This document shows, in pieces, positions 3,215 to 20,749 of a stretch of DNA of 37,342 bases. Made by a program: the position numbers and the translations under genes. Location: assembly GCF_937770335.1 (NCBI RefSeq), contig NZ_CALJHY010000012.1, positions 1 through 37,342 on the forward strand. The letters run 5' to 3'. The notes below the pieces were generated by a model, which saw only the letters and a list, made by a program, of their open reading frames with translations, was not told the origin of the DNA and ran no database searches. Origin of the DNA: an uncultured Glaciecola sp. Lineage in GTDB: Bacteria; Pseudomonadota; Gammaproteobacteria; Enterobacterales; Alteromonadaceae. How positions within the stretch are numbered: position 1 is the first letter of the stretch; each line of letters begins with the position of its first letter.

Positions 3215-3671
3215 TTATGCCTCATTATTTCAGGCAAAATGTTCTACATTGATGTGATTACAATATGTCCGTATACCTTGTAACCCCACGACCGTATGTA
3301 AAACACTTAGGCTGGTAGTTTTGCGCACACTGGCTTTTGCCAATGATTGCCCTCAAATACATGGAAAATAGGCTAACATATTTGTTGTTATAAATATAAT
3401 CTGATGTGTTCACATCAGGTATACCTTTTTTCATTTTATAAGTGCAGTGGTAAGCCCAAATAGCAAACCCATTTACAGCGGGGTAAATCAAAAGTGCTTC
3501 AATCGCTCGTTGCCCAAATAACTAATCATGAGGGCATTAAAATCTACTAACGCTTTAAACTATGCCTACTGCTTTATGACCCTTTCTACCCGTAAAAAAA
3601 GAAAAATGCGACTCCTGCGAAGGATAGTCGAGGATATATGTCTGACGGTCCGCTCTGCTTTTGACTGTCAG
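3215..3671. other. Gap with a possible coding relic on the minus strand
   Basis: About 460 bp without a secure gene. On the minus strand, 3258 to about 3515 is open and reads like protein (it includes GFAIWAYHCTYKMKKGIPDV), but it lacks a convincing start and a TAG stop lies just upstream of the open stretch. It may be the C-terminal relic of a lost gene. I do not recognise it, and chance is not excluded. The promoter of the 1529-3214 lipoprotein should also lie at the left of this gap. Confidence 0.25.
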
Positions 3672-3787
3672 GCCGTAACGGTCATACACCGTTCAAATTT
3701 GTATGAGAAGTTTGTAACGATTGCGATCATTTTAGTTGCTCGATATAACCAGTTTTTACGAGCTGCTTTGCCACCTAAGCGGTCATT
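3672..3787 (+). repeat. Dispersed intergenic repeat, copy A (diverged)
   Basis: The copy aligns from end to end with copy E. Both read CGGTCATACACCGTTC at the left and TTTGCCACC followed a few bases later by CGGTCATT at the right, with a diverged middle. It holds the stem AACGGT (3677-3682), loop CATAC and ACCGTT (3688-3693). The right half replaces the well-kept block of copies C, E and G with a looser version (ACCAGTTTTTACGAGCTGC). It lies between two minus-strand genes and overlaps no secure gene. Confidence 0.7.
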
Positions 3788-3945
3788 AATTATTGAACTG
3801 GTATAATCAACTTTTTTGATTCAAGAATAAATCGATGAGTAGGATATTATTTTTATTAAAGTCTCCTCTGCCATTAAACCAGAACAATCAAACATTATGC
3901 CCAGTAACAGACAGGGGCGTTGTGGGTGTTGCATTACAGGTGCTA

Positions 3946-3987
3946 AAAAAAGTCAGTCCCTCTCAACATCAAAAGAACCGACTTTTT
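3946..3987 (-). terminator. Rho-independent terminator of the 4019-4549 gene
   Basis: On the minus strand AAAAAGTCGGT pairs with ACTGACTTTTT across a 19-nt loop, with one mismatch, and ends in a T-run. It begins about 30 bp after the stop codon of the small exported protein gene. The A-rich opposite arm means it may also work in the other direction. Confidence 0.6.
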
Positions 3988-4018
3988 ACCAGATACTTTT
4001 ATTTGGTTCTCATTTACC

Positions 4019-4549
4019 TTAGTTCCTATCATCCACAGGGATCATAATATGTGCATAATCGGTTTCGCCCCACATCACGTAAGGACCGCCTACTTGAGGG
4101 TCATTGGTAATGCCTTTAAGTACAGCTTTGGACACAATAATCATCAGGTGCGGCCCTTCCTTAATAAAGTCGGGCGCATTCATATGGTCTGCGTGGTAAG
4201 GGGTGGAGTTTGACACACCTCCATCGCCTTGTAACATATAGGAAAACCCCATTTGGGTTGCAGTGAAAGGGGTTTTGGTTCCCACAGCGGCCATCATCTC
4301 CATCCACACCGTATCGTTGCACATCGGCGCATCATCATCCGGCAGGGTTTCTGGCAAGCAAATCCAGCCGTTGCTTCCTTCCAATAGTACTTTTCCACGA
4401 TACATTATTGTGGCATTGGCACTAATCATGGATGGTGCTGCGGATTGTGCTTTCGTGATCAGGGCCTTGTTTTCATCTGCATGGACATTGCCAGAGATCA
4501 ATAGTACAGCAGTGGTAATTAATATTTTCGTTTTATTTAGCTGGAGCAT
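4019..4549 (-). CDS. Small exported protein of unknown function
   Basis: The mature protein appears periplasmic. A signal peptide (LNKTKILITTAVLLISGNVHA) ends at an A-x-A-like site near residue 24-25, leaving about 150 residues. Segments such as SNGWICLPE, MGFSYMLQGDGGVSN, GPHLMIIV, GGPYVMWGETDYAHIMIPV resemble a conserved hypothetical family that I remember from other proteobacteria but cannot name; no function is claimed. Two possible ATG starts are two codons apart. AAGGAG sits one base before the first (4555) and 7 bases before the second (4549), so 4549 is chosen, giving 176 residues. It is monocistronic, with a terminator downstream and repeat copies A and B in the gaps on either side. 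Confidence 0.75.
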   Translation of the reverse strand: MLQLNKTKILITTAVLLISGNVHADENKALITKAQSAAPSMISANATIMYRGKVLLEGSNGWICLPETLPDDDAPMCNDTVWMEMMAAVGTKTPFTATQMGFSYMLQGDGGVSNSTPYHADHMNAPDFIKEGPHLMIIVSKAVLKGITNDPQVGGPYVMWGETDYAHIMIPVDDRN

Positions 4550-4720
4550 CAGCATTCTCCTTGGTTTAGTTCGTATAAAGTATAGAACACACTTCTTATT
4601 TCCGCTTAAAAAATAAACAATTTAAGTAGCTAAATGAAAAATATAAGATTTTTAGGACGATTGCAATTTCTTAACGGATTGATTCGAGATGTGATATTAC
4701 CGACAGTCTGATCGCAAAAT

Positions 4721-4880
4721 GAGTCATACGAAGTTCAAAATTGTACGAGAAATTTTTATCAATTATAGTCGTAGAGGCGCATCGAAAAAACTGGTTTTAA
4801 TGCTCCTATTTTTCACCATCGCGGACAGTCGAGTAATAATGAGTACTACCACCGCGCAACCAGAGCTGACGTTAGCGATG
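4721..4880 (+). repeat. Dispersed intergenic repeat, copy B (long-tail subtype)
   Basis: The copy starts GAGTCATACGAAGTTCAAAA, matching the left part of other copies, and continues with GTCGTAGAGGCGCATCGAAA and TTTTTCACCATCGCGG. Beyond the usual right end it shares a further tail with copy D: CAGTCGAG, then a TAATA-like stretch and TACCACC. It lies between the divergent genes 4019-4549 and 4974-5651, so it sits in their promoter region. Confidence 0.65.
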
Positions 4881-4973
4881 TCGATTTTACTCTAAAAAAC
4901 AGGGCCAGTTGCTTAGAGCAGAGTGATACTTTACTCTACTCATATCCTAAACCTAGGAAAACGAGGTATAGTA

Positions 4974-5651
4974 TTGCAAGAAATATATGAGCAAATGTGG
5001 CAAAACGCCATGCAAAAGTATCGGCAGGAACAATTCGAATTTGATGACTATTTGAGTGAACGGAAAGACACAAGACGCGGTGTAACTTTACTTGCCAGAC
5101 CTAGCTCCGAGATACGCGCAAAAATCACTGAATTTCTTAGTGAGTTCTCTGAGCTAGAGCCAGCTCAATATTGTCAGCCAGATAGTGATTTGCATATTAC
5201 TATAATGTCGATCGTTTCCTGTAAAGAAGACTATGTATTGCAAAATGAGCATCGATATTGTGATGCTGTGAATGAAATATTAATGGGGGTTAGGCCGTTT
5301 GAGGTCGAATTTTGTGGTATTACTGCTTCCCCTAGTTGTGTTCTGTTGCAAGGCTTCCTTCAGGACGAAAGCTTGAATAATCTTCGAAACACAATACGTA
5401 CAGAATTTTTGGGCAACACACTTGAGCATTCAATGGACACTCGTTATACGATTAAAACTGCGCACAGTAGCGTTATAAGATACCTAACCCCGCCAGCAAA
5501 TTCATCTAAAATGGTCAGTTTTCTAAAACTGAATAAAGATAGATATTTTGGAGTAAGCAAAATTACCGAGTTAGAATTAGTGTTGAACGATTGGTATCAA
5601 CGTAAATCAAACACACGGCTGTTAGCGAGGTATAATCTTCCCACAGTCTAA
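4974..5651 (+). CDS. 2H phosphoesterase superfamily protein (2'-5' RNA ligase-like)
   Basis: Two histidine motifs typical of the 2H phosphoesterase fold are visible: HIT at residues 74-76 (in DLHITIMSI) and HSS at 164-166 (in AHSSVIRYL), about 90 residues apart as the family requires. Members act on 2',3'-cyclic phosphates or 2'-5' linkages in RNA or nucleotides; the substrate here is unknown. No signal peptide or membrane segment is seen, so it should be cytoplasmic, unlike most neighbours. The start is a judgement: TTG at 4974 has ACGAGG 7 bases upstream. A GTG at 4923 would add 17 residues but lacks a ribosome site, and the first in-frame ATG is 4995. It is monocistronic. Confidence 0.75.
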   Translation: MQEIYEQMWQNAMQKYRQEQFEFDDYLSERKDTRRGVTLLARPSSEIRAKITEFLSEFSELEPAQYCQPDSDLHITIMSIVSCKEDYVLQNEHRYCDAVNEILMGVRPFEVEFCGITASPSCVLLQGFLQDESLNNLRNTIRTEFLGNTLEHSMDTRYTIKTAHSSVIRYLTPPANSSKMVSFLKLNKDRYFGVSKITELELVLNDWYQRKSNTRLLARYNLPTV

Positions 5652-5850
5652 TGAATAACGTCCTGCACTCCGGTCTGGCGTAGATGCAAAAAATCAAAAA
5701 CTAACGTCAGCAATCAGGCATTTTTGTCTTTAACCAAAATCACTCAACGGCCCCTATGAGAGATCATGTTCCAGTCATGTTGTATTCAATCTTATAACTA
5801 TAATTCGTTCTTAACTGAAGTGTTTGGTAAAACAAGTACGGCGCCTAATA
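5652..5850. other. Gap downstream of the 2H phosphoesterase gene
   Basis: No gene or clear terminator is seen. The stretch ends where copy C of the dispersed repeat begins. Confidence 0.3.
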
Positions 5851-6035
5851 GCCCTTTTTTGCCTGATTAGGTAAGCTCGTCATATTGTATTTTTTGCCAA
5901 ATTATGACGGGCTTAAATACGGCATAAGGAGACATACGCCGTTCAAAACTGTACGGGAAGAATGTGCCAATACCGATCGTAGAGTTGGCTCGAAAAAACT
6001 GTTTTTGACGATCTCTTTTGCCACCATTGCGTCCA
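5851..6035 (+). repeat. Dispersed intergenic repeat, copy C (well kept, full length)
   Basis: This is the most complete copy. The left block (GCCCTTTTTTGCCTGATTAG, then ATTGTATTTTTTGCC and CGGGCTTAAATACGGC) matches F almost exactly. The middle holds ACGGC (5919-5923) pairing with GCCGT (5938-5942). The right block holds GCCAA (5966-5970) pairing with TTGGC (5985-5989), and a tight hairpin AAAAAC-T-GTTTTT (5994-6006). The right block differs from copy G at about 2 of 58 positions. Confidence 0.8.
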
Positions 6036-6617
6036 CCACCTGGCGAACAGCAAGCAAACGAGTTCACTATTCTACACGACTTCAATTTTGGGGCATAGAC
6101 AACAAACAAAACACAAGATACTAAGAAATGCAAAATCTCATGGTAGGAGAGCCTGCACTCAATTTCCAATACTGCTGTAGCAAAGGTCTAACAAGACCAA
6201 AACTGAAACCTGTCACATCAGTAAAAACTACCAGAACATTCTCGCAAAAAACATCTAGCTATTCTAAAAACCAGCTGTGACAAAGGCTAGTAAATAGCTT
6301 TAATTCTTCCTATCCTCTGATACTATTGAGTCAGTTCCGAGTGGAGTTTGGGAATGCAACGTAAAAAAAGCATTTGATGAACTTGGCTTCGAGCCCTCTA
6401 CAGAAAACCAGGCTGCAATACCGGTGTTCTATACTACGGCGTTTTATTTTGAGTAATGTACATAACAATCAATTTAACCAAGCACTCTCCGGTAGCGGGG
6501 ACACTAACGCGGCGCGCCTTCGGCTATTAAAAAATCAGCTCAAAGAAAAGCCTCTTAATGGGACGCTTAACGCACTAATCCTTAATGATTGAGACACCAC
6601 CAAAGAGTATAGAAGCT
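6036..6617. other. Gap with no secure gene upstream of the esterase
   Basis: An open frame at 6374-6592 (72 residues) has no recognisable domain, and I do not call it. The stretch 6461-6577 resembles an integron attC site at first sight (CATAACAA at one end, CTTAATGGGACGCTTAACG at the other), but its ends do not pair properly. The promoter of the following esterase gene should be here. Confidence 0.3.
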
Positions 6618-7520
6618 ATGACTAGAATAAGAATTACCATCCTACTACTTATTGCAATTTTCAGCGGTTCAATTACCGCACAGGAAAACTCGGCGGAACA
6701 ATTTGAGTCGATAACGGTTAACGGGGAGGAGCGACAATGGCGAATATTTATTCCGTCTACTTACAAAAAAGGTAAACCAACACCTCTCGTACTCAACTTT
6801 CATGGGAGTGGTTCGGCCCCAAATCGTCAGGCAATGCTTTCTGAATTTGAACAGCTCGCTGAGTTGGAAGAGTTCTTTGTTATTAGTCCAGCTGCGAAAT
6901 ATTACCCCAAGAAAGGTGGATTAGTAACTTGGAATGTAGACAGTCATGTAACGGGTGTTGACGATGTCTTATTTATCAGAGAACTAATCGCCAATATAAG
7001 CCAACATTACACGATAGACCCAACTAGAATATATTCGACGGGTTTTTCTGGAGGCGCTCGGATGAGCAGTCGGTTGGCATGTGATCTTTCCAATGTTATT
7101 GCAGCGATCGCTCCCGTTGCAGGCGTTCGGTTTCCAGAAGACTGTAATCCGAGTCGACCCGTACCTGTGATCACCTTTCATGGAAAGGCAGACAACATAA
7201 ACCACTACAAACATCAAGCTGACTCCAACGCATACTGGCGCATGGGTGTAGAAGAAGCACTCTCTGGTTGGATAAGTACCAATAAATGCACTGGTTCGCC
7301 GGCGCTAGAAGACGTGAGTGATTCTGTAATTCGCGTTTCCCACCAGAGCTGCCAAAATGAGGGTCATGTAATATTCTATCGTTCCGAAGACGCTGGGCAC
7401 ACGTGGCCGGGTTCGCCACTCGCTGACTATCTTGAAACGAGTGGCTTAGGCAAGACAAACATGGAGATCCCAGCAACGAAGTTGATCTGGGAGTTTTTCA
7501 AGATGCACCCACTTCAGTAG
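6618..7520 (+). CDS. Secreted esterase of the CE1 / PHB-depolymerase (LpqC-like) group
   Basis: This alpha/beta hydrolase probably cleaves ester bonds such as feruloyl or acetyl groups on plant polysaccharides, or short polyesters; substrate choice is not visible. In 300-residue numbering, the oxyanion loop FHGSGSAPN is near 62, the nucleophile Ser144 lies in GFSGGA, Asp192 is in HGKAD and His261 is in AGHTWPG, all in family order. Cysteine pairs fit an exported protein. The signal peptide MTRIRITILLLIAIFSGSITAQ supports the start at 6618 over the in-frame ATG at 6585, which would put 11 polar residues before it. It is monocistronic, between repeat copies C and D. Confidence 0.85.
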   Translation: MTRIRITILLLIAIFSGSITAQENSAEQFESITVNGEERQWRIFIPSTYKKGKPTPLVLNFHGSGSAPNRQAMLSEFEQLAELEEFFVISPAAKYYPKKGGLVTWNVDSHVTGVDDVLFIRELIANISQHYTIDPTRIYSTGFSGGARMSSRLACDLSNVIAAIAPVAGVRFPEDCNPSRPVPVITFHGKADNINHYKHQADSNAYWRMGVEEALSGWISTNKCTGSPALEDVSDSVIRVSHQSCQNEGHVIFYRSEDAGHTWPGSPLADYLETSGLGKTNMEIPATKLIWEFFKMHPLQ

Positions 7521-7572
7521 TCTATTAAGATGCATAATATTAGGTTTTCATCGATAACCATGACAGACAAGT

Positions 7573-7765
7573 AAACGGCAAAAGGAGACATACGCCGTTC
7601 AGAATTGTATGAGAAATTTGTTCCAATGATGGTCATAGCTGCGCATCGAAAAATCGGTACTTTATACTTTTATTTTCCACCATTGCCTGCAGTCGAGCGA
7701 TATTAAGTAATACCACAGCATGACCATAGCGGACCGTCGAGAACTCATAATGACAGCAGGCGCGA
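7573..7765 (+). repeat. Dispersed intergenic repeat, copy D (long-tail subtype)
   Basis: The copy begins with a perfect stem AACGGC (7574-7579) / GCCGTT (7594-7599) around AAAAGGAGACATAC. It continues with GCGCATCGAAAAATCGG, TTCCACCATTGCC and the tail CAGTCGAG...TAATACCAC shared with copy B. It lies in the gap between the convergent genes 6618-7520 (+) and 7972-9951 (-), so it cannot serve as a promoter for either. Confidence 0.7.
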
Positions 7766-7896
7766 CATAGCTGACTTAAGAACGTTGATTGTCAATTGTT
7801 AAAAGAACTGATTAGCAGGGAAATTATTATAAAAAATTGAATATGATTCTTTACTGAAATGTCCGGCTAATTCAACCACAACAAGCTTTGTGTCTT

Positions 7897-7930
7897 AAAA
7901 AGACGGACCATTGTATGGTCCGTCTTTTTT
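7897..7930. terminator. Strong bidirectional terminator between convergent genes
   Basis: AAAAAGACGGACCAT (7897-7911), loop TGT, then ATGGTCCGTCTTTTT gives a perfect 15-bp stem with A- and T-runs at its ends. It can end transcription from the left (esterase unit) and from the right (lipoprotein 7972-9951). Confidence 0.85.
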
Positions 7931-7971
7931 GCTCAAAGCGAAAATCAAGTAAATAATGCTATTAACAGACC

Positions 7972-9951
7972 CTAGTCAAATAAATAAATGCCTACACGCA
8001 GAAATTGGCCTCCAGAGCCAAAAAAGAAAACTTCATCGCTGCCTTTATACAAATTCCAAGCTTGTTGTGAAAACGGCACCTCATAATAAAAACCAGATGC
8101 CTGTTGATTCAATGTCGCTAAATCGTACATATTCTTGCGACTACCCTCAACACCATCAAATACAAGTCCTGAGCTTACGCTTAGCATGGGTCGATTCAAA
8201 CTAAGCTTGGTAACAAGTTGTAAAGTGTCTTTTGAAAATACATAACCATACTCGGTAAATATTAAGCTGTCGTTAGCATCAATTAGGGGCACAGAAAATT
8301 GCCCCATTGGCCCATTATTGCCAATCTCAGCATTTTCAAGTAATACCGCATTTGTTTGTTCCCACACGTTTTCATTATTTAATGTAAATCTACGAAGCGA
8401 TAATTCCTCAGCGTTAAAGCCATTAATGTTAAATATTACAAAGGAGCCTGGACTTTCGCTCATGACAACATTGCCGCTATATCCGATGGAAATTCTACCT
8501 GAGCTTGTTAGCTGGACACCGTCAAACACGAGAAACTGTGTGTCATCAAAAATACTTTCGTTAAACGAAACAATCCATGAAGCCTCATCACCTGCCACTG
8601 TTTCGATCGATACAGAGCCGGTGCTCAATGAGTTGCCATCCGCAAATTCATTCAGATTGACAGTGCCAATAATTTCCATCGTGCTCGTTGAAATTATGTA
8701 TATGTTGTTAACACTGTTTTGTGCAATTAATAAATATAAGTATTCACCATTTTCGGATAGCGCGAAACGGGTAGCCCAATCATCTGCAGATATTTGTAAT
8801 GAGTCAAGCACTCGCATTTCCTCTACATCTATTTTTTGCAGCCGACTTGTTGAGCCCGTCCCTGAAAAATCAATACTCGTGGCATATGCGAGCTGTTTCT
8901 TTTCGTCATAAAGAATATTTTGGATCCTAACTGGCTGCGCTGTATCATTGTTTGGGTCAGAGCTGCTCAAGCTTAAACTTTCAACACTGTTAGCAAATGA
9001 ACTTTCTGTCGCTGCTCCTATTGCAAAGCCAATAGACCCCTCATAAAACTCACTATCATTATAACTTACCGTTTCTCGTAAGCTGTTATTCACCCTCAAT
9101 TGATAAACGGTATCAGCGTCGCCTGCACTTTTTATTAAAGTAATATAGTTGCCCGCGCTGACAATAGAACCGCATCTGTAAACATATTCAGTTGGTAAGC
9201 GATACACTAGTCCACGCATCGCTGAATTTGACTCACACGAAAAATCAAAGCCAAAGATATCGGAGTTAACCCTAAAAGTATGGTCAATTGAATATGTTAA
9301 ATTATCTTGGTCATATATGTAGTTAATTGATAGATTGCTAATTGTATCTGAAATATTGTTAAGCGAGACCCTAAAAGGTGCACTCACAGTACGCAGAGAC
9401 ACTTCAACAAGCTTATCTACAACTACTTGCTTAACCTCCATTCCAGTTGAGGCAAATTGCACGGCACCATCGCTATCGCTGGCGATTAAATCAAGATCTA
9501 TTTGGTAGTCCAGAGTTAACGAATCGCTAGCTAGAATTTCGATTACTGCGTTACCATCAATCGCTTGCTCAGTAAAATCTGGCACGCAATTTATAAATTC
9601 GATGTTAAGAGTGTCACCAACTGAAATCTGACCATTATTGTCTGCATCAGTATGCTCAGTTATATACTCACCTTGCCTTACACAGTTGTTGCTTACACTG
9701 TCGCTAATACTCACTAACTCCGGCGCTAGTGCTGGGCTTATAAGCTGAGCAACTTGGTAGACAGACTCAATGACAGCGATCCCATATCCTGCAACATCTG
9801 CTGCATTATCAACAGTAATCGGATTTTCAATGACGGGAGGCGGTTGCACGGGAGGGGGTTGGCTGGGGTTGCTACTATCTCCGCCTCCACCGCAGGAAAA
9901 AAGTAATAATGAGATAACGAAAGAAAAAAAGTAGGCGCGATACGCTTTCAA
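7972..9951 (-). CDS. Large lipoprotein with beta-propeller-like C-terminal half
   Basis: This 659-residue protein has a lipoprotein signal peptide with lipobox L17-F18-S19-C20, then Gly-rich and Pro-rich linkers, so it is anchored to a membrane, probably the outer one. An EF-hand or dockerin-like calcium loop is seen near residue 100-112 (DADNNGQISVGD). From about 340 to the end, repeated blade-like units (LAYATSIDF, YLYLLIAQNSVNNIYIIS, SWIVSFNESIFDD) suggest a YncE/YVTN-type beta-propeller. No catalytic motif is visible and I do not recognise the family; a binding or scaffold role is only a guess. The gene is single and ends at the strong terminator at 7897-7930. Confidence 0.7.
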   Translation of the reverse strand: MKAYRAYFFSFVISLLLFSCGGGGDSSNPSQPPPVQPPPVIENPITVDNAADVAGYGIAVIESVYQVAQLISPALAPELVSISDSVSNNCVRQGEYITEHTDADNNGQISVGDTLNIEFINCVPDFTEQAIDGNAVIEILASDSLTLDYQIDLDLIASDSDGAVQFASTGMEVKQVVVDKLVEVSLRTVSAPFRVSLNNISDTISNLSINYIYDQDNLTYSIDHTFRVNSDIFGFDFSCESNSAMRGLVYRLPTEYVYRCGSIVSAGNYITLIKSAGDADTVYQLRVNNSLRETVSYNDSEFYEGSIGFAIGAATESSFANSVESLSLSSSDPNNDTAQPVRIQNILYDEKKQLAYATSIDFSGTGSTSRLQKIDVEEMRVLDSLQISADDWATRFALSENGEYLYLLIAQNSVNNIYIISTSTMEIIGTVNLNEFADGNSLSTGSVSIETVAGDEASWIVSFNESIFDDTQFLVFDGVQLTSSGRISIGYSGNVVMSESPGSFVIFNINGFNAEELSLRRFTLNNENVWEQTNAVLLENAEIGNNGPMGQFSVPLIDANDSLIFTEYGYVFSKDTLQLVTKLSLNRPMLSVSSGLVFDGVEGSRKNMYDLATLNQQASGFYYEVPFSQQAWNLYKGSDEVFFFGSGGQFLRVGIYLFD

Positions 9952-10494
9952 TGTAACTACCTTAGGAAGTTCAAAACCAATGGGTATATTGTAGGCTTGG
10001 CTTTATGGTGTCAATAACTTAACCGTTAATAGATCAATTTTGAATTGACATTAAACATACGTAATGCGCTTTATATCGGGTTTGAGCTCAAAGGGTATCA
10101 TCAATTACAGCGCATAATGTGATGGTCTCAAATCAATTCGTAGCAAATACAGTTAAGGTCTTCACCGTTTTCATTTGATCCAGATCAACGCTACATTACT
10201 GAGTGAAAAAGTTGCACGTGAAAAATATGATGCAAAAGGAGAACCCATCCTGTGTAATGACAGACCAATAGAGCGTTTTGTTCGTTCTTTTAAAGATAAA
10301 CAGGTCATTCTTTGAATCTGCATCTAAAACGGCAGTGAGGTCAAAGACAAGCTTTGTCTGCATTGCGCAACAGATGGTCGGGCTCATCACTATCAATTGG
10401 GAATATGGTAAAGCTGAAAGTCTATAAATTGCCCGTACTTGTCTTAGACAGCTGAACGGCAGTTGCGGTCGTAAAACCCGCTACAAAGTTTGAT
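9952..10494. other. Gap with possible gene relics
   Basis: The plus strand from about 10147 to 10315 is open and protein-like (KYDAKGEPILCNDRPIERF), ending in TGA, but it has no start and follows a TAA; I do not recognise it. At 10454-10490 the text GGCAGTTGCGGTCGTAAAAC resembles the left part of repeat copy E and may be a fragment of the family. The promoter of the 9951 lipoprotein gene should lie at the left. Confidence 0.25.
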
Positions 10495-10620
10495 CATCCT
10501 GAGTCATTCCTGCGAAGGCAGGAACCTCCCACCATCAATCGTGGAGCCAAAAGAATCGTTATTTTTAAATTTTCTAAAACGCTTGGGAGGTCCTTGCTTT
10601 CGCAAGGATGACGGAGGATG
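10495..10620. repeat. REPIN-like double-hairpin element
   Basis: Two arms of 37 bases (10495-10531 and 10584-10620) are imperfect inverse copies of each other, both reading CATCCT..GTCAT.C.TGCGAA on their own strand. Each arm also holds its own hairpin: TTCCTGC-GAAG-GCAGGAA and TCCTTGC-TTTC-GCAAGGA. Two inverted REP units with a spacer form a REPIN, spread in many bacteria by a RAYT transposase. No RAYT gene is in the window. It ends about 18 bp before copy E begins. Confidence 0.75.
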
Positions 10621-10638
10621 TTCAACAGTCTGCTAACG

Positions 10639-10793
10639 GCCCTTTTTTGCCTGATCAACCTGGGCTTGAATACGCAGGCAATTGCGGTCATACACCGTTC
10701 TGATTGTATGGGAAGAATATGCCAATACCGGTCGTAGCGTTAGCTCGAAAAAACTGTTTTTGACGATCTCTTTTGCCACCATTACGGTCATTC
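10639..10793 (+). repeat. Dispersed intergenic repeat, copy E
   Basis: The left edge GGCCCTTTTTTGCCTGATCA is as in copy C, but the ATTGTATTTTTTGCC part is missing (internal deletion). The middle has CGGT (10685-10688) and ACCG (10694-10697) around CATAC. The right block GCCAATACCGGTCGTAGCGT and AAAAAACTGTTTTTGACG differs from copy G at 1 of the first 58 positions. It lies upstream of the mes cluster, between divergent units. Confidence 0.8.
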
Positions 10794-11009
10794 GCCTTTT
10801 CTAAAAATCAGATGAAATATACTATTAGTAGTACGTCGTTATCGCCCCAAAGCAGGTTGCATTTAATACACCCCACACGGTTAATTTGAACGGTCTGATT
10901 TTATCAACCTAATTAACTTACATCTGATAATAGATAAACAGAAATGCATGGCCATATGCCCTTTAAATCACTGAACAGTTCACCCTTACTTATAAAAGCA
11001 TGAGATTTA
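10794..11009. other. Gap upstream of the mes operators
   Basis: AT-rich sequence with no open frame that I can support. Confidence 0.3.
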
Positions 11010-11070
11010 TTCATCAATCAATGAAATAAAACCATTTTTATTCATCAAATGAATCAAGTATAAAATACTT
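11010..11070. promoter_or_regulatory. Operator region of the mes operon
   Basis: Two related palindromes occur: TTCATCAATCAATGAA (11010-11025) and ATTCATCAAATGAAT (11040-11054), about two helical turns apart. A further inverted repeat, AAGTAT-AAA-ATACTT, is at 11056-11070. A third site of the same kind stands before the LysR-type gene (13261-13276). LysR regulators bind such interrupted palindromes, and known MetR sites contain TGAA/TTCA half-sites, here in outward order. Binding by the neighbouring regulator is inferred. Confidence 0.5.
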
Positions 11071-11201
11071 ACGTTTTAACTCTGAATAAGATTACAGTTG
11101 ATTCCTAGATGTATTATTAGGGAAAAAATAAAAACTGTGATGGAAAATTTAGTTAGAGAAAAAAGTTTAAGTTTTTACATTAAATTGGGTAACAGATCGC
11201 C

Positions 11202-12179
11202 ATGAATAAAAATTTTACATTTACCATTAAAAGCATTCTTCTCGATGAAAACTATCAACCTTCAGACAATACACGTATTACAACCAACTTTGCTAATTTG
11301 GCAAGAGGAGAGAGCCGCCAACAGAACTTGAGAAGTGCTTTAAATATGATCGATAATAGTTTTAATGCATTGGCGTATTGGGATAATCCCAGAGGCGAAC
11401 GTTATTCTGTCGAGCTTGAAATCATTTCTGTCGATATTGATATTGAGGGTAGTGACCAAGCCTTCCCATCTATTGAAGTGTTGAAAACGAATATTGTTGA
11501 TCATCAAATTAATGAACGCATTGAAGGCATTGTAGGGAATAACTTTTCCTCTTATGTGCGAGATTATGATTTTAGTGTGTTACTAGGTGAGCATAATAAA
11601 GGTCAAAGCAAATTTAGCATTCCAGATGATTTTGGCGTTCTACATGGCAAACTATTTAAGCATTTTGTCAACTCAACTACTTATAAACAGCATTTTAATA
11701 AGTCACCTGTTATCTGTCTCAGTGTTTCGGATAACAAAACCTATAATCGAACTCAAAATCAACATCCTTTATTAGGTTTTGAATATCTGCCCAATGAATC
11801 ATCTTTGACTGAGCAATACTTTAAAAAAATGGGCTTACAGGTTCGTTATTTTATGCCGCCTAACAGTGTTGCGCCTTTAGCTTTCTTTTTCTTTGGCGAT
11901 TTACTTAATGATTACAGTAACCTCGAGCTTATAAGTACCATTAGCACGATGGAAACGTTTCAAAAGATTTACCGACCTGAAATTTACAATGCGAATGCTG
12001 TTGCAGGAAATTGCTATCAACCAAATTTGAAGAACTTGGATCATTCATTAACCCAAATTGTTTATGACCGAGAAGAGCGCAGTATGTTGGCCATTAAGCA
12101 GGGGAGATTTGCGGAAGAACATTTCATAAAACCATATCAAACCATGCTTGAGCAGTGGTCTGCTAATTACGCTATTTAA
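11202..12179 (+). CDS. mesX: MesX, DUF1852 putative oxygenase needed by methionine synthase MesD
   Basis: The 325-residue protein reads as a DUF1852 member (MNKNFTFTIKSILLDENYQP; the segments NFANLARGESRQQNLRSAL, LLGEHNKGQSKFSIPDDFG and AVAGNCYQPNL are typical). DUF1852 proteins (MesX) are required, with oxygen, for the folate-independent and cobalamin-independent methionine synthase MesD; the chemistry and methyl donor are not settled. No signal peptide is seen, so it should be cytoplasmic. The ATG at 11202 has only a weak ribosome site. mesD follows 27 bp downstream on the same strand, so the two form an operon, with palindromic operators 130-190 bp upstream. Confidence 0.9.
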   Translation: MNKNFTFTIKSILLDENYQPSDNTRITTNFANLARGESRQQNLRSALNMIDNSFNALAYWDNPRGERYSVELEIISVDIDIEGSDQAFPSIEVLKTNIVDHQINERIEGIVGNNFSSYVRDYDFSVLLGEHNKGQSKFSIPDDFGVLHGKLFKHFVNSTTYKQHFNKSPVICLSVSDNKTYNRTQNQHPLLGFEYLPNESSLTEQYFKKMGLQVRYFMPPNSVAPLAFFFFGDLLNDYSNLELISTISTMETFQKIYRPEIYNANAVAGNCYQPNLKNLDHSLTQIVYDREERSMLAIKQGRFAEEHFIKPYQTMLEQWSANYAI

Positions 12180-12206
12180 TTAACTCGAGGGTACAACACA
12201 TTTATT

Positions 12207-13244
12207 ATGAAAAAATTATTACCTACTTCAACGGCAGGCAGTTTACCTAAGCCCTCGTGGCTTGCAGAACCAGAAGCCCTATGGTCCCCTTGGAAATTAC
12301 AGGGTGAGGAATTAATTGATGGCAAACACGATGCGTTACGTGTGTCATTGCAAGAACAACAACAAGCAGGTATTGATATTGTCAGTGATGGTGAGCAAAC
12401 ACGCCAACATTTTGTTACTACGTTTATTGAGCACCTGGCCGGCGTTGATTTTGAGAATCGCAAAATCGTTAAGATTCGTGATCGTTATGACGCGAGTGTA
12501 CCGACAGTGATTGGTGGGGTTTCTCGACCAAAGCCTGTGTTTGTTGAAGATGCCAAGCTTTTACGCCAGCAAACTGATAAACCTATTAAATGGGCTTTGC
12601 CAGGCCCAATGACGATAATAGATACACTTTATGATGACCATTATCAAAGTCGCGAAAAGCTCGCTTGGGAATTTGCTAAAATCCTTAATCAAGAAGCTAG
12701 AGAGTTAGAAGCAGCGGGTGTTGATATTATCCAATTTGATGAGCCTGCATTTAATGTATTTTTTGATGAGGTTAATGATTGGGGGATTGCTTGTTTAGAG
12801 AGAGCAATTGAAGGGCTTAAGTGTGAAACCGCTATACATATTTGCTATGGTTATGGCATCAAAGCCAACACCGATTGGAAAAAGACGTTGGGGTCTGAGT
12901 GGCGACAATATGAAGAAGCTTTTCCAAAACTGCAAAAATCTAATATCGATATTATCTCGCTCGAATGTCATAACTCGCATGTTCCAATGGAGCTACTTGA
13001 ACTTATTCGAGGTAAAAAAGTGATGGTAGGCGCCATTGATGTGGCAACTAATAGCATAGAAACACCTGAGGAAGTCGCCAGTACCCTAAGAAAAGCACTC
13101 AAGTACGTCGATGCCGACAAGCTTTACCCTTGCACTAACTGCGGCATGGCTCCTTTATCTCGTGATGTAGCAAGGGGAAAACTACGGGCTTTAAGTGCCG
13201 GCACAGAAATCGTCCGGAGAGAGCTTTCCACCCGTAACTTATGA
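12207..13244 (+). CDS. mesD: MesD, core-type methionine synthase (MetE C-terminal-like)
   Basis: The enzyme methylates homocysteine to methionine without the folate-binding N-terminal half of MetE; at 345 residues it is the catalytic barrel only. The zinc ligands of the MetE family are visible as His211 and Cys213 (IHICYGYG), Glu253 (SLECHNSH) and Cys312 (CTNCGMAP). Other family marks are TAGSLPKPSWL near the start, SDGEQTR at 60-66, WALPGPMTI and FDEPAF. Its location next to mesX fits the aerobic MesD family. The ATG at 12207 is kept although the nearest ribosome-like site (CGAGGG) is far, about 15 bases. It is likely translated from the mesX message and controlled by the downstream LysR-type protein. 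Confidence 0.92.
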   Translation: MKKLLPTSTAGSLPKPSWLAEPEALWSPWKLQGEELIDGKHDALRVSLQEQQQAGIDIVSDGEQTRQHFVTTFIEHLAGVDFENRKIVKIRDRYDASVPTVIGGVSRPKPVFVEDAKLLRQQTDKPIKWALPGPMTIIDTLYDDHYQSREKLAWEFAKILNQEARELEAAGVDIIQFDEPAFNVFFDEVNDWGIACLERAIEGLKCETAIHICYGYGIKANTDWKKTLGSEWRQYEEAFPKLQKSNIDIISLECHNSHVPMELLELIRGKKVMVGAIDVATNSIETPEEVASTLRKALKYVDADKLYPCTNCGMAPLSRDVARGKLRALSAGTEIVRRELSTRNL

Positions 13245-13260
13245 ATAAAAATAATATTAC

Positions 13261-13276
13261 TTCATCAATCGATGAA
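13261..13276. promoter_or_regulatory. Palindrome before the LysR-type gene, shared with the mes operators
   Basis: TTCATC-AATC-GATGAA is a perfect 6-bp inverted repeat with a 4-bp spacer. Its left 9 bases equal the site at 11010-11025. It stands 39 bp before the regulator start codon, a typical place for LysR autoregulation, and 16 bp after mesD ends. Confidence 0.5.
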
Positions 13277-13314
13277 TTTAGGTCATCATTAAAGGTAAAT
13301 ATAGGAGTTAAGTG

Positions 13315-14208
13315 ATGTTAGAAAGGATCCATTTAGAAATACTCACTGCAATCAAAGATTATGGAACCCTAACTAAAGCGGCTAATTCTTTGCACTTATC
13401 TCAATCTGCGTTAAGTCACAGTATTAAAAAACTAGAGGGGCAACTTGATACTCAGATATGGAAAAAAGATGGTAGAAACTTGCGCCTTACGCCTGCTGGA
13501 GAACGCATTCAAACGCTTGCTAATAGAGTATTGCCTCAGTTTTTACACACGGAATTATTATTAAATCAAATTTCCAAAGGTGAGATGGGTTCACTACGAA
13601 TAGGAATGGAGTGTCACCCTTGTTATCAGTGGCTACTCAGGGTCATACAGCCATATCTAGAGCAGTGGCCTGACATTGATATGGATGTGAAGCAAGAGTT
13701 TCAATTTGGGGCTTTAGGTGCGTTACTTAGCTACGAAATAGATGTACTTATTACACCAGACCCGCTTTTTAAGCCTAAGATAGACTACATACCCGTTTTT
13801 GAATATGAGCATAGGCTCGTAGTTTCCGAGTCTCACAAACTGGCACAACAAGATTTTGTGCTACCGGAGCAACTAAGCGATGAAAGCCTGTTTAGCTACC
13901 CTGTAGAACCACTTAGACTCGATATTTTTAGTCAATTTCTTAACCCAGCAAAGTGTTCAGTAAAGAAACATAAATACATTGAAACGACTGAGATCATGTT
14001 GCAGATGGTCGCCGCTGGCAGAGGTATTTGTGCCTTACCCGGCTGGCTAGTGGATGAATACTCAAAATTAATGCCTATCAAAAGTATTCGTTTTGGAAAG
14101 AAAGGAATTAGTAAACAGATCTTCGTTGGTATCCGCAAGGACGAACAAAAAATCGATTACCTAAGTGATTTTATTGCTCAAGCTAAAAAAATCAAAATGA
14201 TCAATTGA
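13315..14208 (+). CDS. LysR-family transcriptional regulator, MetR-like
   Basis: The protein has an N-terminal winged helix-turn-helix (residues about 1-60; GTLTKAANSLHLSQSALSHS and LRLTPAGE are typical) and a C-terminal LysR substrate-binding domain from about 90. The segment MGSLRIGMECHPCYQWL and the late AGRGICALPGWLVDEY are MetR-like; E. coli MetR uses homocysteine as coactivator. The sequence and the position right after mesD suggest control of methionine synthesis. The start chosen is ATG 13315, 7 bases after AGGAG; GTG 13312 would be only 4 bases away. The shared palindromes before mesX and before this gene fit joint control. It might be a separate unit or read through from mesD. Confidence 0.85.
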   Translation: MLERIHLEILTAIKDYGTLTKAANSLHLSQSALSHSIKKLEGQLDTQIWKKDGRNLRLTPAGERIQTLANRVLPQFLHTELLLNQISKGEMGSLRIGMECHPCYQWLLRVIQPYLEQWPDIDMDVKQEFQFGALGALLSYEIDVLITPDPLFKPKIDYIPVFEYEHRLVVSESHKLAQQDFVLPEQLSDESLFSYPVEPLRLDIFSQFLNPAKCSVKKHKYIETTEIMLQMVAAGRGICALPGWLVDEYSKLMPIKSIRFGKKGISKQIFVGIRKDEQKIDYLSDFIAQAKKIKMIN

Positions 14209-14273
14209 ACTCGCAGCTTGGAGCGGTCATACGATTGGAAGAAAGACGACTGACTCCAATTCGCAGCTCTAAT
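14209..14273. other. Gap after the regulator gene
   Basis: Short stretch with no gene or clear terminator. It contains CGGTCATACGATTGGAAGAA, which recalls the left part of the repeat family and may be a fragment. Confidence 0.2.
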
Positions 14274-14275
14274 GG

Positions 14276-14440
14276 GCCCTTTAATCAATTTTGACGACAG
14301 GCAGCTTATTATTTTTTTTTACCTGATTAGGTAAGGTCGTCATATTGTATTTTTTGCCGAATCATAACGGGCTTAAATACGGCATAAGGAGTCATACGTC
14401 ACTCAAATATGTGTGAAAAATATTTGCCATAAGCAACCAT
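14276..14440 (+). repeat. Dispersed intergenic repeat, copy F (left block kept, right block lost)
   Basis: The left part is nearly identical to copy C (CCTGATTAGGTAAGGTCGTC, ATTGTATTTTTTGCC, CGGGCTTAAATACGGC). It shares with copy G the edge GCCCTTTAATC and the text GCCGAATCATAACGGGCTT. After CATACGTCACTC the sequence decays, and the conserved right block cannot be recognised. The stem partner of ACGGC is damaged here. Confidence 0.75.
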
Positions 14441-14750
14441 TGAGATTAGAAACTTTGATGGGCTGTTGCACTTCAAACCAGTCATTCAGCCAGTCGTTAA
14501 TTACGCCTCTTTTTGCCACACTTGTCTGCATAGAATTCAAGGAGGAACGAATGTACTCCTTGTTCAAAAATCTGCAATATCAGGGATCAGAACAGGCAGA
14601 TATTTCATCGCAATATAATCACACCCCACATAAATCTGTACCGCACGCCAGTTAGCAATCTCTAAAGGTCGGAAAAATGAGACCTGTTGCATAGCTCAGG
14701 GTGGTGTATTATTCTTCCTATACACAACATAAGCGCAATAAAATAAAAAT
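14441..14750. other. Gap upstream of the amidohydrolase gene
   Basis: An 80-residue open frame (14413-14655) overlaps the repeat, has no domain I recognise, and is not called. An inverted repeat CAAGGAG...CTCCTTG lies at 14538-14562. The promoter of the next gene should be near 14690-14740, but no good -35/-10 pair with normal spacing was found. Confidence 0.25.
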
Positions 14751-16106
14751 ATGACGATTAAACTATTAAAGAGCAGTCTACTGTTTGCTGTAATTACCCT
14801 GAGTCTTAGCTTCACTGTCAATGCTAGCGAAAACTTGAAATCTGAAGTTGAAAAAAGCTACAACAGCTATCTCAAAGATTTGTTCATTCACTTCCATCAA
14901 AACCCTGAGTTGTCTTTAGTAGAGACCAAAACAGCAGCCCGTTTAGCTAAAGAGTTAAGGCTTGTTGGCTTTGAAGTAAGCGAGGGAGTCGGTGTTGAGC
15001 TTAACGGCTTTGCGCCAAATGGTATTGTGGCCATGATGAAAAACGGTAACGGGCCCTTAGTGATGATGCGTGCTGACATCGATGGGCTGCCTGTGGCGGA
15101 AAAATCAGGCTTGAGCTATGCTTCAAAAGCAACCCAAACGTCTCCCATTAATGGCGACCAAGTACCTACCATGCATGCCTGCGGACATGATGTGCATATT
15201 ACGAGTTTGGTTGGCACTGCCCGTTATATGGCGTCTATAAAAGACCAATGGTCGGGTACCTTAATGTTAATAGGCCAGCCTGCTGAAGAAAACTTGTTGG
15301 GTGCTAAACAAATGATGGACGCAAATATCTGGAAGACCTTTGGCCAACCTGATTATGCATTGGCGTTTCATGTTACATCGTCTTTACCAAGTGGCGTGGT
15401 TAATGTCATCGAAGGTACGCCTTTTGCCGGCTCTGATAACCTAGACATGATTATTCATGGCGTTGGCGCCCATGGCGCAAGCCCACACGCTGGAAAAGAT
15501 CCTGTTGTACTTGGCTCTCAAATTGTCCTTGCTTTACAAACCTTAGTAGCTCGTGAGGTGAGTCCTCGTGATCCAGGGGTAGTTACCGTCGGGTCATTTC
15601 AAAGTGGCTCAATACATAATGTTATTTCTGACCGAGCCGAATTAAAGTTAACGGTAAGAAACACGAGTTTGGAAACCCGCAAAATACTACTTGATGGTAT
15701 TGAGCGCATTGCAAAAAATATGGGCCGAGTTGCCGGTATGCCAGAAGATAAATTGCCAGAAATCACTCTTATCTCGAGTACACCACCCACCGTTAACAAT
15801 GCTGCATTAGCTTCGCGCTTAAAAAGTCTGTGGATCGACAACATGGGTGATGAGGCTGTTTGGAGCATGGAGCCCAGAGGCATGGGAGCAGAAGATTTTC
15901 CGTATTTCACTACCGACCCCAAAATTAAGAGTGTATATTGGGCTGTTGGCGGAACAAGTGCCAGCGATTGGGCAGCCGTACAAAATGGTGAAAAATCTAT
16001 TCCTTCGCATCATAGCCCTTACTTTAAAGTCGAGCCAGAATCTGTGAAATTAGGGGTTGAAAGTACTGTCCTTGCTTTATTGGAGTTAATGCCTAAAAAT
16101 AAATAG
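14751..16106 (+). CDS. Exported M20 (M20D) amidohydrolase / aminoacylase
   Basis: This 451-residue metal-dependent hydrolase should release an acyl group from an N-acyl amino acid or related amide (hippurate or IAA-amino-acid hydrolase group). The signal peptide MTIKLLKSSLLFAVITLSLS ends near NAS at 24-26, so it acts in the periplasm, less usual for the group. Metal and active-site motifs are present: RADIDGLP at 107-114, MHACGHDVH with Cys144 and His146, GQPAEE with Glu179-Glu180, His207, the dimerisation insert (GAHGASPHAG), GMGAEDF and HHSPYF near 420. It is monocistronic between repeat copies F and G. Substrate is unknown. Confidence 0.88.
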   Translation: MTIKLLKSSLLFAVITLSLSFTVNASENLKSEVEKSYNSYLKDLFIHFHQNPELSLVETKTAARLAKELRLVGFEVSEGVGVELNGFAPNGIVAMMKNGNGPLVMMRADIDGLPVAEKSGLSYASKATQTSPINGDQVPTMHACGHDVHITSLVGTARYMASIKDQWSGTLMLIGQPAEENLLGAKQMMDANIWKTFGQPDYALAFHVTSSLPSGVVNVIEGTPFAGSDNLDMIIHGVGAHGASPHAGKDPVVLGSQIVLALQTLVAREVSPRDPGVVTVGSFQSGSIHNVISDRAELKLTVRNTSLETRKILLDGIERIAKNMGRVAGMPEDKLPEITLISSTPPTVNNAALASRLKSLWIDNMGDEAVWSMEPRGMGAEDFPYFTTDPKIKSVYWAVGGTSASDWAAVQNGEKSIPSHHSPYFKVEPESVKLGVESTVLALLELMPKNK

Positions 16107-16187
16107 TGCAGCGCTATAGGGCGAGGGCGAGCCAAATATATTCATACGGTTGAATTAATCGTGACTGGCAAGTCATCGCTCAATGCC

Positions 16188-16378
16188 GCCCTTTAATCGA
16201 TTTTGATAACAAGTCGGTTACTTGTATTTTTTGCCGAATCATAACGGGCTTGAATACGGCAATTGCCGACTGTCACTGCTTTTTAGCCAATTGGCGCTTT
16301 GTGCCAATACCGGTCGTAGCGTTGGCTCGAAAAAACTGTTTTTGACGATCTCTTTTGCCATTATTGCGGCCGTTCATC
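16188..16378 (+). repeat. Dispersed intergenic repeat, copy G (well kept, altered middle)
   Basis: Left edge GCCCTTTAATCGATTTTGAT as in copy F, then TTGTATTTTTTGCCGAATC. In the middle the usual stem is replaced by the palindrome CGGCAATTGCCG (16258-16269), followed by GACTGTCACTGC and GCCAATTGGC. The right block GCCAATACCGGTCGTAGCGT and AAAAAACTGTTTTTGACG is in full form, with GCCAA (16303-16307) pairing with TTGGC (16322-16326). It lies between the convergent genes 14751-16106 and 16564-17436. Confidence 0.8.
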
Positions 16379-19430: not shown

Positions 19431-19878
19431 TTACGATTGCACTGTCTGCAACTTTCCAAAATACATACCGATGAGTTTTGCGGTATTTTCTTGCATAGAG
19501 AACGCATCGAGATCTTCCAAATATTCAACCGCAATGCCACGTAAATAACCACTAATACCGATGGTTAATAACATGGGATCAGTATTTTGTGGAAGCACAC
19601 CTTGATTAATTGCTTTATCAAAGTAACGCGACAATGTGACATGTTTTTGTTTCTTTTTTTCATTATAACGGTCTTTACTTTGCGCAAACTCATCGGAGTA
19701 ATCACAGAGTATAAGGCAAATTAACACTATAGACTAGCCTCCGTAACAGCTGCATTTGCGGGTCGTTTTGTGTTTGCTTATTTCTGGTCTCAGTGAGATT
19801 TGCGAGATCTTTGTCGTCAATGTGAATGAGTAAGCTGACTGTTAGTATTGAAGTCTTGATAAAGAGATGTAAAGCGCC
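19431..19878 (-). pseudogene. Broken TetR/AcrR-type regulator (C-terminal part)
   Basis: The last 98 residues (19431-19727) read as the C-terminal ligand domain of an AcrR-type TetR regulator (CDYSDEFAQSKDRYNEKKKQ; GVLPQNTDPMLLTIGISGYL). Upstream on the same strand another frame gives DKDLANLTETRNKQTQNDPQ and QLLRRLVYSV before a stop, as expected for the preceding helices, so a frameshift lies near 19725-19745. The start of this part (GALHLF) recalls the end of the TetR DNA-binding domain, but the helix-turn-helix itself is missing. The IS91-type remnant begins less than 100 bp away, so insertion may have removed the N-terminus. It should not bind DNA. Confidence 0.6.
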
Positions 19879-19965
19879 TTACCTCAGAATATGGAATATT
19901 CAAGCCCCGTGTGTTAAGCGTCAAAGTCTTTTTGGATGATGGCAGATCTGAGCGGTCACCGGAAC

Positions 19966-20749
19966 CTAGTGAGATTAATTCGTGTTGGCGGAATGAGTGG
20001 CACTAGTTTGCCAATGAAATCCAGTGGCGTGAAGAATACGTGGGTCGTGCCGTCTCGATAGGGTGTTTTTAATTCATACTGCACTTTTCCATGGTCGGTC
20101 ATGCTCAAGCGCTGTTCACTAATGGCAGAACGGCTGATGTAACGGCAAAGCCTTTCTAGTTTGTCAGACTCATCAGCATTGGCGGATTACCTCTACACGA
20201 AGTGACTGCGTGTAGAGAAAATCCACTTGCATTGGCTAGCTGTCCATATTCACTTTCATTACTTGCTGGAATAGTTTGCAAAGTAAACACTTTTTGTCCT
20301 TGTTGAGGACCCATAGCGATGCCGTAGCTGACAGATTCGCCTTGCAGGTGTAATGAGCTGTCTTCGTCATTTAGTGGCAAATTGAGAAAACTGTTTTTCA
20401 TATCCCGCTCTACCAAATCTACTTTCTCTAAGTATCTGGCAATGCGCTGGCTGATGGTGTGTACTAGCTCCACCATGCTGCTATGGGACGGGGCTTTGAT
20501 GCGGGTAAAGGTGGTCCCTCCCCATGGATTTTCACTTATTGCGCCTTCCAGAAACAGCATGTGGAAGTGGATGTTTAGATTGAGGGCACTGCCGAAGCGC
20601 TGGATCAGTATGACCGCCCCTATTTTGGCTTGTTTATTGGTAAAGCCTGCTCGGCTCACAATTTGAGTAGAAATAGCGCGGCGGATAAATCCCATCACTT
20701 TACTTAACTCACTTGGATATCTAGCCAATAGCAATCTAAGTATAGACTG
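19966..20749 (-). pseudogene. IS91-family transposase remnant
   Basis: The text matches the middle of an IS91/IS801-type HUH transposase, a rolling-circle single-strand nuclease. LLLARYPSELSKVMGFIRRA is followed by the HUH core FNIHFH-like LNLNIHFHMLFLEGA, and later by KLERLCRYISR (Tyr motif), LKTPYRDGTTHVFF, PLDFIGKLVPLIP and RINLTRF. A frameshift lies near 20185: the first frame ends in a wrong tail (MLMSLTN) at 20156, while the correct reading DESDKLERLC continues in another frame. The N-terminal zinc-finger part and the C-terminal end are missing. Element ends were not found. It is inactive, and probably the agent or trace of the rearrangement that broke the TetR gene. Confidence 0.85.

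Follow-up and report, generated by a model that had tools for sequence, protein, structure and literature searches.

The seven repeat copies in the 37,342-nucleotide stretch of Glaciecola DNA analysed here (the window) are chimeras whose joints lie within a short recurring site, M. Our analysis of the sequence suggests that they probably belong to an intergenic mosaic repeat family working like the neisserial intergenic mosaic elements (NIME, composed of dRS3 and RS repeats), which are the closest known kind and have a different site. We propose that M could be a recombination site, or the sole shared homology, where DNA is exchanged. Exchange at M would reshuffle modules, and sometimes adjoining genes, within and between strains. 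Less firmly, IS91/ISCR-like rolling-circle elements may be one source of movement, as suggested by an M-like site at the left ends in several cases and by core carried along in two (copy C and its partner on contig C16). If real, this would be a second mosaic family, with another site sequence, co-oriented, with one copy per gap and in marine gammaproteobacteria, and would make it possible to test whether such repeats are gene-exchange tools or mere scars.

The repeat family and its hosts

A sequence-only reading had described seven copies on one strand. We found all seven on the plus strand, in the order and at the places given, with core starts defined by profile at 3671, 4714, 5920, 7576, 10677, 14380 and 16257 (copies A to G); the earlier positions of C, E, F and G mark where the left blocks start, not the cores. 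Over 58 bp from GCCAATACC, the one to two differences reported among C, E and G hold, by a count made by eye, for C/G (two) and E/G (one), while C and E differ at three positions. The near-identity of C and F in the left block was borne out (90% match across 93 bp), and a 34-bp stretch has three mismatch-free occurrences where shuffles expect none. The coordinates of all parts are given in Table 1.

The suggestion that many more copies would be found proved right: a profile search (E ≤ 0.01) counted 26 in this genome, seven of them in the window, so the family is not limited to these copies. It is present in 6 of the 13 genomes of the genus, and its wider spread is patchy, with the repeat in 11 of 295 genomes of the family (284 without). 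We searched for the repeat in plasmids and phages and found no relatives. In related genomes we located loci homologous to the MesX operon and M20 gene, and 0 of 7 had the repeat in the fetched flanks; the surroundings of these loci differ, so they do not represent an empty site. No pair of a filled and an empty site with a target duplication was found.

As previously proposed, the repeat core holds no transposase of its own. The repeats have no Rfam match at the gathering score either, the only Rfam matches in the window being 5 tRNAs and one c-di-GMP-I riboswitch. It is extremely improbable that the copies are pieces of a structured RNA or of a multi-copy gene that has decayed, even if an open frame spans core and right module in copies B and C and the copies align almost gap-free. 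Across the 8 copies tested no common frame stays open, and differences are spread almost evenly over the codon phases (0.30, 0.24, 0.23), which speaks against a gene; no base pairs were predicted from 44 aligned copies and no conserved structure was seen, which together with the Rfam result rules against an RNA. Nor do the ends of 5920-6317 form terminal inverted repeats by eye, as those of a MITE would.

Table 1. Parts of the repeat copies and associated IS91/ISCR-like sequences in the window
Feature	Position	Strand	Remarks
Copy A, core and right module	3670..3790	+	ends at M-like site, about 3778
Copy B, core and right module	4712..4870	+	75% like copy D, 157 bp
Copy C, left block	5851..5919	+	common to F and copies in other contigs and species; meets core at M1
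Copy C, core and right module	5920..6031	+	M1 5920-5933, M2 about 5966-5978, M3 about 6020-6034 (sites by eye)
IS91/ISCR-like 3' terminal part fused to copy C	6021..6317	+	same end as Y2-transposase elements
Copy D, core and right module	7576..7734	+
Copy E, left block in short form	10638..10675	+
Copy E, core and right module	10676..10793	+
Copy F, left block	14249..14379	+	85% like contig C7 copy over 217 bp, core included
Copy F, core and F-type right module	14380..14474	+
IS91/ISCR-like transposase gene 5' leader fused to copy F	14475..14557	+
Copy G, left block	16188..16256	+	39/40 like F from 16222
Copy G, M1-M2 module	16257..16300	+	like contig C16 copy, 89% over 74 bp
Copy G, module from M2	16301..16371	+	as in C and E
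IS91/ISCR-like transposase remnant (Y2_Tnp, internal stops)	19700..20740	-	3' end about 19700; outside the seven copies

Site M and the mosaic build of the copies

The family combines a core some 50 bp long with shared blocks to its left and right. These parts meet at M, which a copy may contain as many as three times (M1, M2 and M3), spaced about 46-58 bp, with exchangeable modules between them. We compared the limits of homology over 490 pairs drawn from 52 copies, which are related, so that the pairs are not independent: left ends peak at model positions 0-4 (174/490) and right ends at 50-54 (158/490) and 105-119 (69/490), and these three peaks coincide with M1, M2 and M3. Single copies give the same picture. 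One on contig C20 of genome G007 resembles contig C14 of this genome on its left (86%, 189 bp) and contig C16 on its right (91% over the 239 bp compared), with 7 bases inside M1 common to both matches. Copy G is composed of three parts, with joints at M1 and M2. When all blastn ends were set against the strict M consensus the excess was marginal (61 of 1001 ends near M versus 76 of 1763 interior points, p 0.045), and the M motif profile was trained on the very sequences to which it was applied. The uneven similarity of the copies is best read from their alignments as block exchange at a short site, and not mainly as decay of one unit. Of the earlier account, which combined decay with repeated spread or gene conversion, the dispersed intergenic family stands, whereas the leading part given to decay does not.

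Homologous recombination at the most conserved stretch would place joints within M too. By this account gene-rich islands would gather short repeats in their long spacers in the ordinary way; RecA would exchange DNA at the stretch where conservation is highest, and there would be no dedicated site. The match of the joints to that stretch, the patchy hosts and our failure to find a recombinase tied to the copies all fit it. However, joints are seen at each of the M places in a copy, and the interior of M1 differs between copy C and its C16 partner, which are otherwise 95% alike. We consider this account improbable.

To our knowledge, intergenic repeats of mosaic build with a short site at their borders are mainly known from Neisseria. 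In the parts of the two sources consulted (PMC3898611, PMC3046118), NIME are described as a site of about 20 bp, a target for mobile DNA, that parts modules of 30-160 bp in intergenic arrays beside variable genes. The present copies likewise alternate a short site with modules of 30-160 bp in mosaic combinations. In contrast to NIME, they lack the dRS3 site ATTCCC-N8-GGGAAT (with 2 mismatches allowed the window has 3 matches against 1.25 expected, none of them at a copy), M is not a clear palindrome by eye, the copies are co-oriented with one per gap, and there are 26 of them here as opposed to the almost 700 dRS3 given for Neisseria in the text available to us.

Arrangement along the contigs and comparison with integrons

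Copies tend to follow each other closely, since this genome has 11 neighbour pairs at 0.2-6 kb where 0.95 are expected. The single orientation reported for the window is also found in other runs of this genome (4/4 on contig C16 and 3/3 in the C4 run at 211-216 kb), the exceptions on the opposite strand being two more C4 copies, at 115 and 147 kb. Over five genomes 25 of 30 neighbour pairs at these distances (0.2-6 kb) are co-oriented and 5 inverted (one-sided p 1.6e-4 if pairs are independent). In the window one copy lies in each of the 7 gaps of at least 100 bp (7/7, chance 0.0035), and a run on contig C12 of G007 has 8 copies in 8 of 10 gaps (chance 0.011), while clusters C16 (0.08) and C4 (0.27) are not significant alone; these four clusters were tested with manually drawn gap lists that span each cluster between its outermost copies, small ORFs overlapping cores being left out. 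Runs in G002, G011 and other parts of G007 are less regular. We also looked by eye at whether orientation tracks the replication fork, using GC skew and the positions of the G002 copies, and this was not supported.

In the window the copies resemble chromosomal integron arrays in having one site per gene or operon, a single orientation and a spacing of 1-4 kb. This cassette-like layout could mean that the repeats are degenerate attC sites left by integron arrays, and integron integrases over the cut-off are indeed found in 8 of 13 genomes. In this genome an integrase scrap with internal stops (C3:505760-505879, E 4.7e-7) lies about 110 bp from a copy. Nevertheless, the imperfect palindrome with paired R boxes that defines attC is missing. 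A pattern scan gave none at the window copies but did pick up attC-like sites in L053, L060 and L061, three stretches with an integrase; by eye these sites are unlike the repeat. The predicted folding of copy E does not surpass that of shuffled sequences. Among the four genomes with more than 10 copies an integrase over the cut-off is confined to G011 (G000, G002 and G007 lack one), and the array genes scanned include none. Moreover, the genes beside copies in the best clusters run in both directions and reach 2.3 kb, unlike those of integron arrays. We consider it very improbable that the copies are integron relics. We tentatively entertain, as an unlikely reading, a cassette-array system of another kind, with neither integron nor palindromic attC, in which M would be a short directional site in each gene gap, cut by a dedicated recombinase or serving as a rolling-circle stop site of ISCR-like type. 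Such cutting or stopping would allow genes and operons of either direction to be swapped as M-bounded units among marine Alteromonadaceae.

IS91/ISCR-like elements beside the copies

The earlier reading had named a match to a known IS end as a refutation, and this applies in part: copies C and F are joined to IS91/ISCR-like ends. For 40 of 45 cores, however, the following 2.5 kb (less where a stretch stops earlier) show no conserved 3' end of this kind. The other 5 represent roughly a 2.5-fold excess over random positions (4.4%), and copy B, which is among them, reaches the 3' end belonging to C. The core runs into this end within 276-409 bp in copy C, its C16 partner and L021 (on C4); copy C together with 6021-6317 recurs on C16 as a 399-bp unit with 95% identity. 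L060 has the whole series (core, leader, a decayed Y2 transposase and the 3' end) within 1.48 kb.

Such cases raise the possibility, which we hold to be unlikely, that the copies are worn IS91/ISCR-like termini. These would be internally deleted or one-ended rolling-circle copies with their left stop at M (terIS-like) and their right end mostly lost; the intervening genes would then be cargo, in line with a proposal made for ISCR. There is a precedent in IS801, for which one-ended transposition stopping at a ter-like sequence is demonstrated in the part of PMC3189936 consulted. A 3'-end match on the same strand, 548-694 bp past the Y2 match, was seen for 13 of the 26 transposase stretches, two of these belonging to the model. 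An M-like site (at least 9/11) lies within 200 bp upstream of the transposase gene in 5 of 12 elements versus 6.5% of random stretches, although two of the five are near-identical, and plasmid ISCR2, inspected alongside, scored 7. Y2_Tnp is found in all 6 repeat-bearing genomes versus 3 of 7 repeat-free ones; however, G003 has 9 Y2_Tnp matches and no repeat. The copies are like IS91/ISCR elements (ISCR clade Ia-like) and IS801 products in their relatives' domains, the conserved 3' end and the short derivatives, and unlike them in that this right-border 3' end (oriIS) is missing at most cores, copy C having it. Should M be a left stop of ISCR-like elements, this would bear on how ISCR pick up adjacent genes.

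The full-length relatives L095 and L111 encode proteins with Zn_Tnp_IS91 and Y2_Tnp domains, a result that bears only on the element to which copies C and F are joined; the transposases score 568 and 511 bits, under the NCBI ISCR_clade_Ia cut-off of 925.

IS30 was rejected as an engine: its model is unmatched in 5 of 6 repeat-bearing genomes and matched in 4 of 7 repeat-free ones. As to whether mobile DNA uses M as an integration target, three IS30-like ends have M scores of 7, 6 and 5 of 8 just outside, a score of 6 being reached by 16% of random stretches. Two further ends (L037 and L043) are not independent because they were found via a core match, and L037 and L095 belong to a single element, one at either end.

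After 19 ends of the IS91/ISCR-like elements no constant tetranucleotide, such as a GAAC/CAAG-type target, was seen by eye, the last base of the element not being fixed. A wide motif, AAAGCGGWCATTC, was found in 114 of 398 Pseudomonadota genomes versus 24 with a reversed control (hand count of the listing); no ISCR-like transposase was seen at 20 of these loci, and we therefore claim no link between AAAGCGGWCATTC and ISCR. The transposase 3' region of pHH1107 (ISCR2) holds CTTCCTATACTC, part of which is shared by the ends described here, a weak likeness (15/21 with a shuffled maximum of 15; profile E 0.11). An element on an A. macleodii plasmid has a clear 3' end (E 1.3e-11).

Anatomy and range of the repeat

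The sequence-only reading had described seven same-strand repeat copies in the window, and these are real, at the positions that it gave (core starts in the Table). A 34-base stretch occurs three times, with 0 mismatches and 0 expected, in the window, which is one entire contig (C12, 37,342 bases) of a 3.85-Mb genome in 18 contigs. The repeat core is approximately 50 bp long, with the short site M at its start (M1, CGGCAAAAGCNGNC) and again at its end (M2, GTGCCAAAAGCGGTC), and many copies have one more site, M3 (CCACCATTGCGG), 50-60 bp past M2. Upstream of the core lie blocks of several kinds, among them the long left block of copies C and F, the shorter form seen in E and the GACAAGT-type block of D. 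The blocks downstream are likewise of several kinds, and copies alike on one side are frequently unlike on the other.

Profile R1, built from 44 copies and counted at E up to 0.01, matched 26 copies in the window's genome (G000), 37 in G007, 23 in G011, 11 in G002, two in G010 and one in G008, and none in the remaining 7 of the 13 genomes of the genus. Family-wide, at 1e-4 and with stricter filters, 11 of 295 genomes (5 of 52 genera) had a match. One exact repeat pattern led to five records: Aliiglaciecola lipolytica, Glaciecola sp. 33A, Paraglaciecola sp. MB-3u-78 and two uncultured Glaciecola/Paraglaciecola bins. The repeat had no match among plasmids and phages, and none in Rfam at gathering score. 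We conclude that this is a real mosaic repeat family, and searches of open-licence PMC text found no description of such repeats in this bacterial group.

Positions of the repeat cores and neighbouring features
Feature	Location	Strand
Copy A core start	window 3671	+
Copy B core start	window 4714	+
Copy C core start	window 5920	+
Copy D core start	window 7576	+
Copy E core start	window 10677	+
Copy F core start	window 14380	+
Copy G core start	window 16257	+
Decayed Y2 transposase with its own 3' end	window 19,700-20,740	
c-di-GMP-I riboswitch	window 3276-3361	-
561-aa gene	window 1529-3214	-
Serine hydrolase (PF00144)	window 17985-19259	
Serine hydrolase (PF00144)	L137 730-2253	
Serine hydrolases (PF00144)	L021 (G000:C4) 8878-10182, 11287-12570	
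Broken integron integrase, attC-like site	within L060 (G007:C12:134000-153999)	
Integron integrase scrap	L062 (G000:C3:505760-506038)	

Arrangement among genes

The copies are clustered. In the window's genome 11 neighbour pairs of copies lie 0.2-6 kb apart (0.95 expected), and over five genomes 25 of 30 pairs at this distance are co-oriented. Between 3.2 and 16.6 kb of the window every gene gap of at least 100 bp holds exactly one core (7/7), when two small ORFs overlapping cores are omitted. A 14-kb run on G007:C12 has 8 cores in 8 of 10 gaps, on a single strand throughout; regularity is lower in runs of G002, G011 and other G007 contigs. The neighbouring genes are varied and point both ways. 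They comprise the MesX operon, a gene with a weak 2'-5' ligase match, and genes for an esterase, an M20 peptidase, a SecA-like protein, serine hydrolases and a chemoreceptor. Because DNA-level matches exist in 5 (MesX operon) and 4 (M20 gene) of the 13 genomes, the window's included, both are accessory here.

Serine hydrolases of the Beta-lactamase family lie in or beside three repeat clusters. The riboswitch (43.9 bits, gathering 35) precedes the 561-aa minus-strand gene, which has no Pfam match at E 0.001.

Chimeric copies and proposed exchange at M

In the G007:C20 copy the sequence left of M1 matches the C14 copy of the window's genome, and the sequence right of M1 matches that genome's C16 copy. 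Both matches take in the same 7 bases inside M1; a longer version of the right-hand match reaches into the start of the adjacent gene. Copy G of the window is likewise composite: its left block resembles that of F, the next module resembles the one at C16:27.8 kb, and the right module is that of C and E. Homology ends in 490 pairs from 52 copies, the pairs not being independent, peak at positions 0-4, 50-54 and 105-119; a cruder M test over all blastn ends was only marginal. The M1 interior differs between copy C and the C16 copy despite 95% likeness over 399 bp. We infer that the mosaic form of the repeat arises by exchange at M.

The family has the pattern of the neisserial intergenic mosaic elements (NIMEs) described in PMC3898611 and PMC3046118: modules of 30-160 bp set off by a short site, in arrays between genes, beside variable genes. 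That NIME sites promote gene exchange is offered there as a suggestion. The site M has another sequence.

IS91/ISCR-like elements and other neighbours

Copy C is followed by the 3' end that also closes elements with a Y2 transposase, one of which lies decayed in the window. Of 26 transposase stretches, 13 (two of them used in the 3'-end model) showed a match to this 3' end on the same strand, 548-694 bp past the Y2 match, and the tail of copy F is the leader of IS91/ISCR-like transposase genes. Full-length relatives carry Zn_Tnp_IS91 and Y2_Tnp domains and best match ISCR clade Ia, under its cut-off score; one shares 58.5% identity with a transposase that is annotated on a plasmid as ISVsa3-like (ISVsa3 is ISCR2). 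The 3' end lies downstream of only 5 of 45 cores (4.4% at random positions), one of them, copy B, reaching the 3' end that belongs to C. This makes the elements look like passengers, or like vehicles that carry the core now and then, rather than its general body.

A 304 aa tyrosine recombinase adjoins a Y2 transposase in L102, L106 and L125 (G002, G007 and G011, all repeat-bearing); the transposases of L102 and L106 align mutually and not with the ISCR-like ones. In L060 the broken integron integrase and the attC-like site lie next to a block that has 91% identity over 981 bp with a block adjoining the C4 repeat cluster of the window's genome (L021). In L062 a scrap that matches the integron integrase C-terminus (E 4.7e-7) and has internal stops lies approximately 110 bp from a repeat copy. 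IS30-like ends followed by stretches of varying M-likeness occur at L114, L095, L037, L043 and L136, also on an Alteromonas macleodii plasmid, a statistically weak pattern. AAAGCGGWCATTC is present in 114 of 398 Pseudomonadota genomes (the reversed pattern has few matches), and four small genomes from a single family have it 5-9 times.
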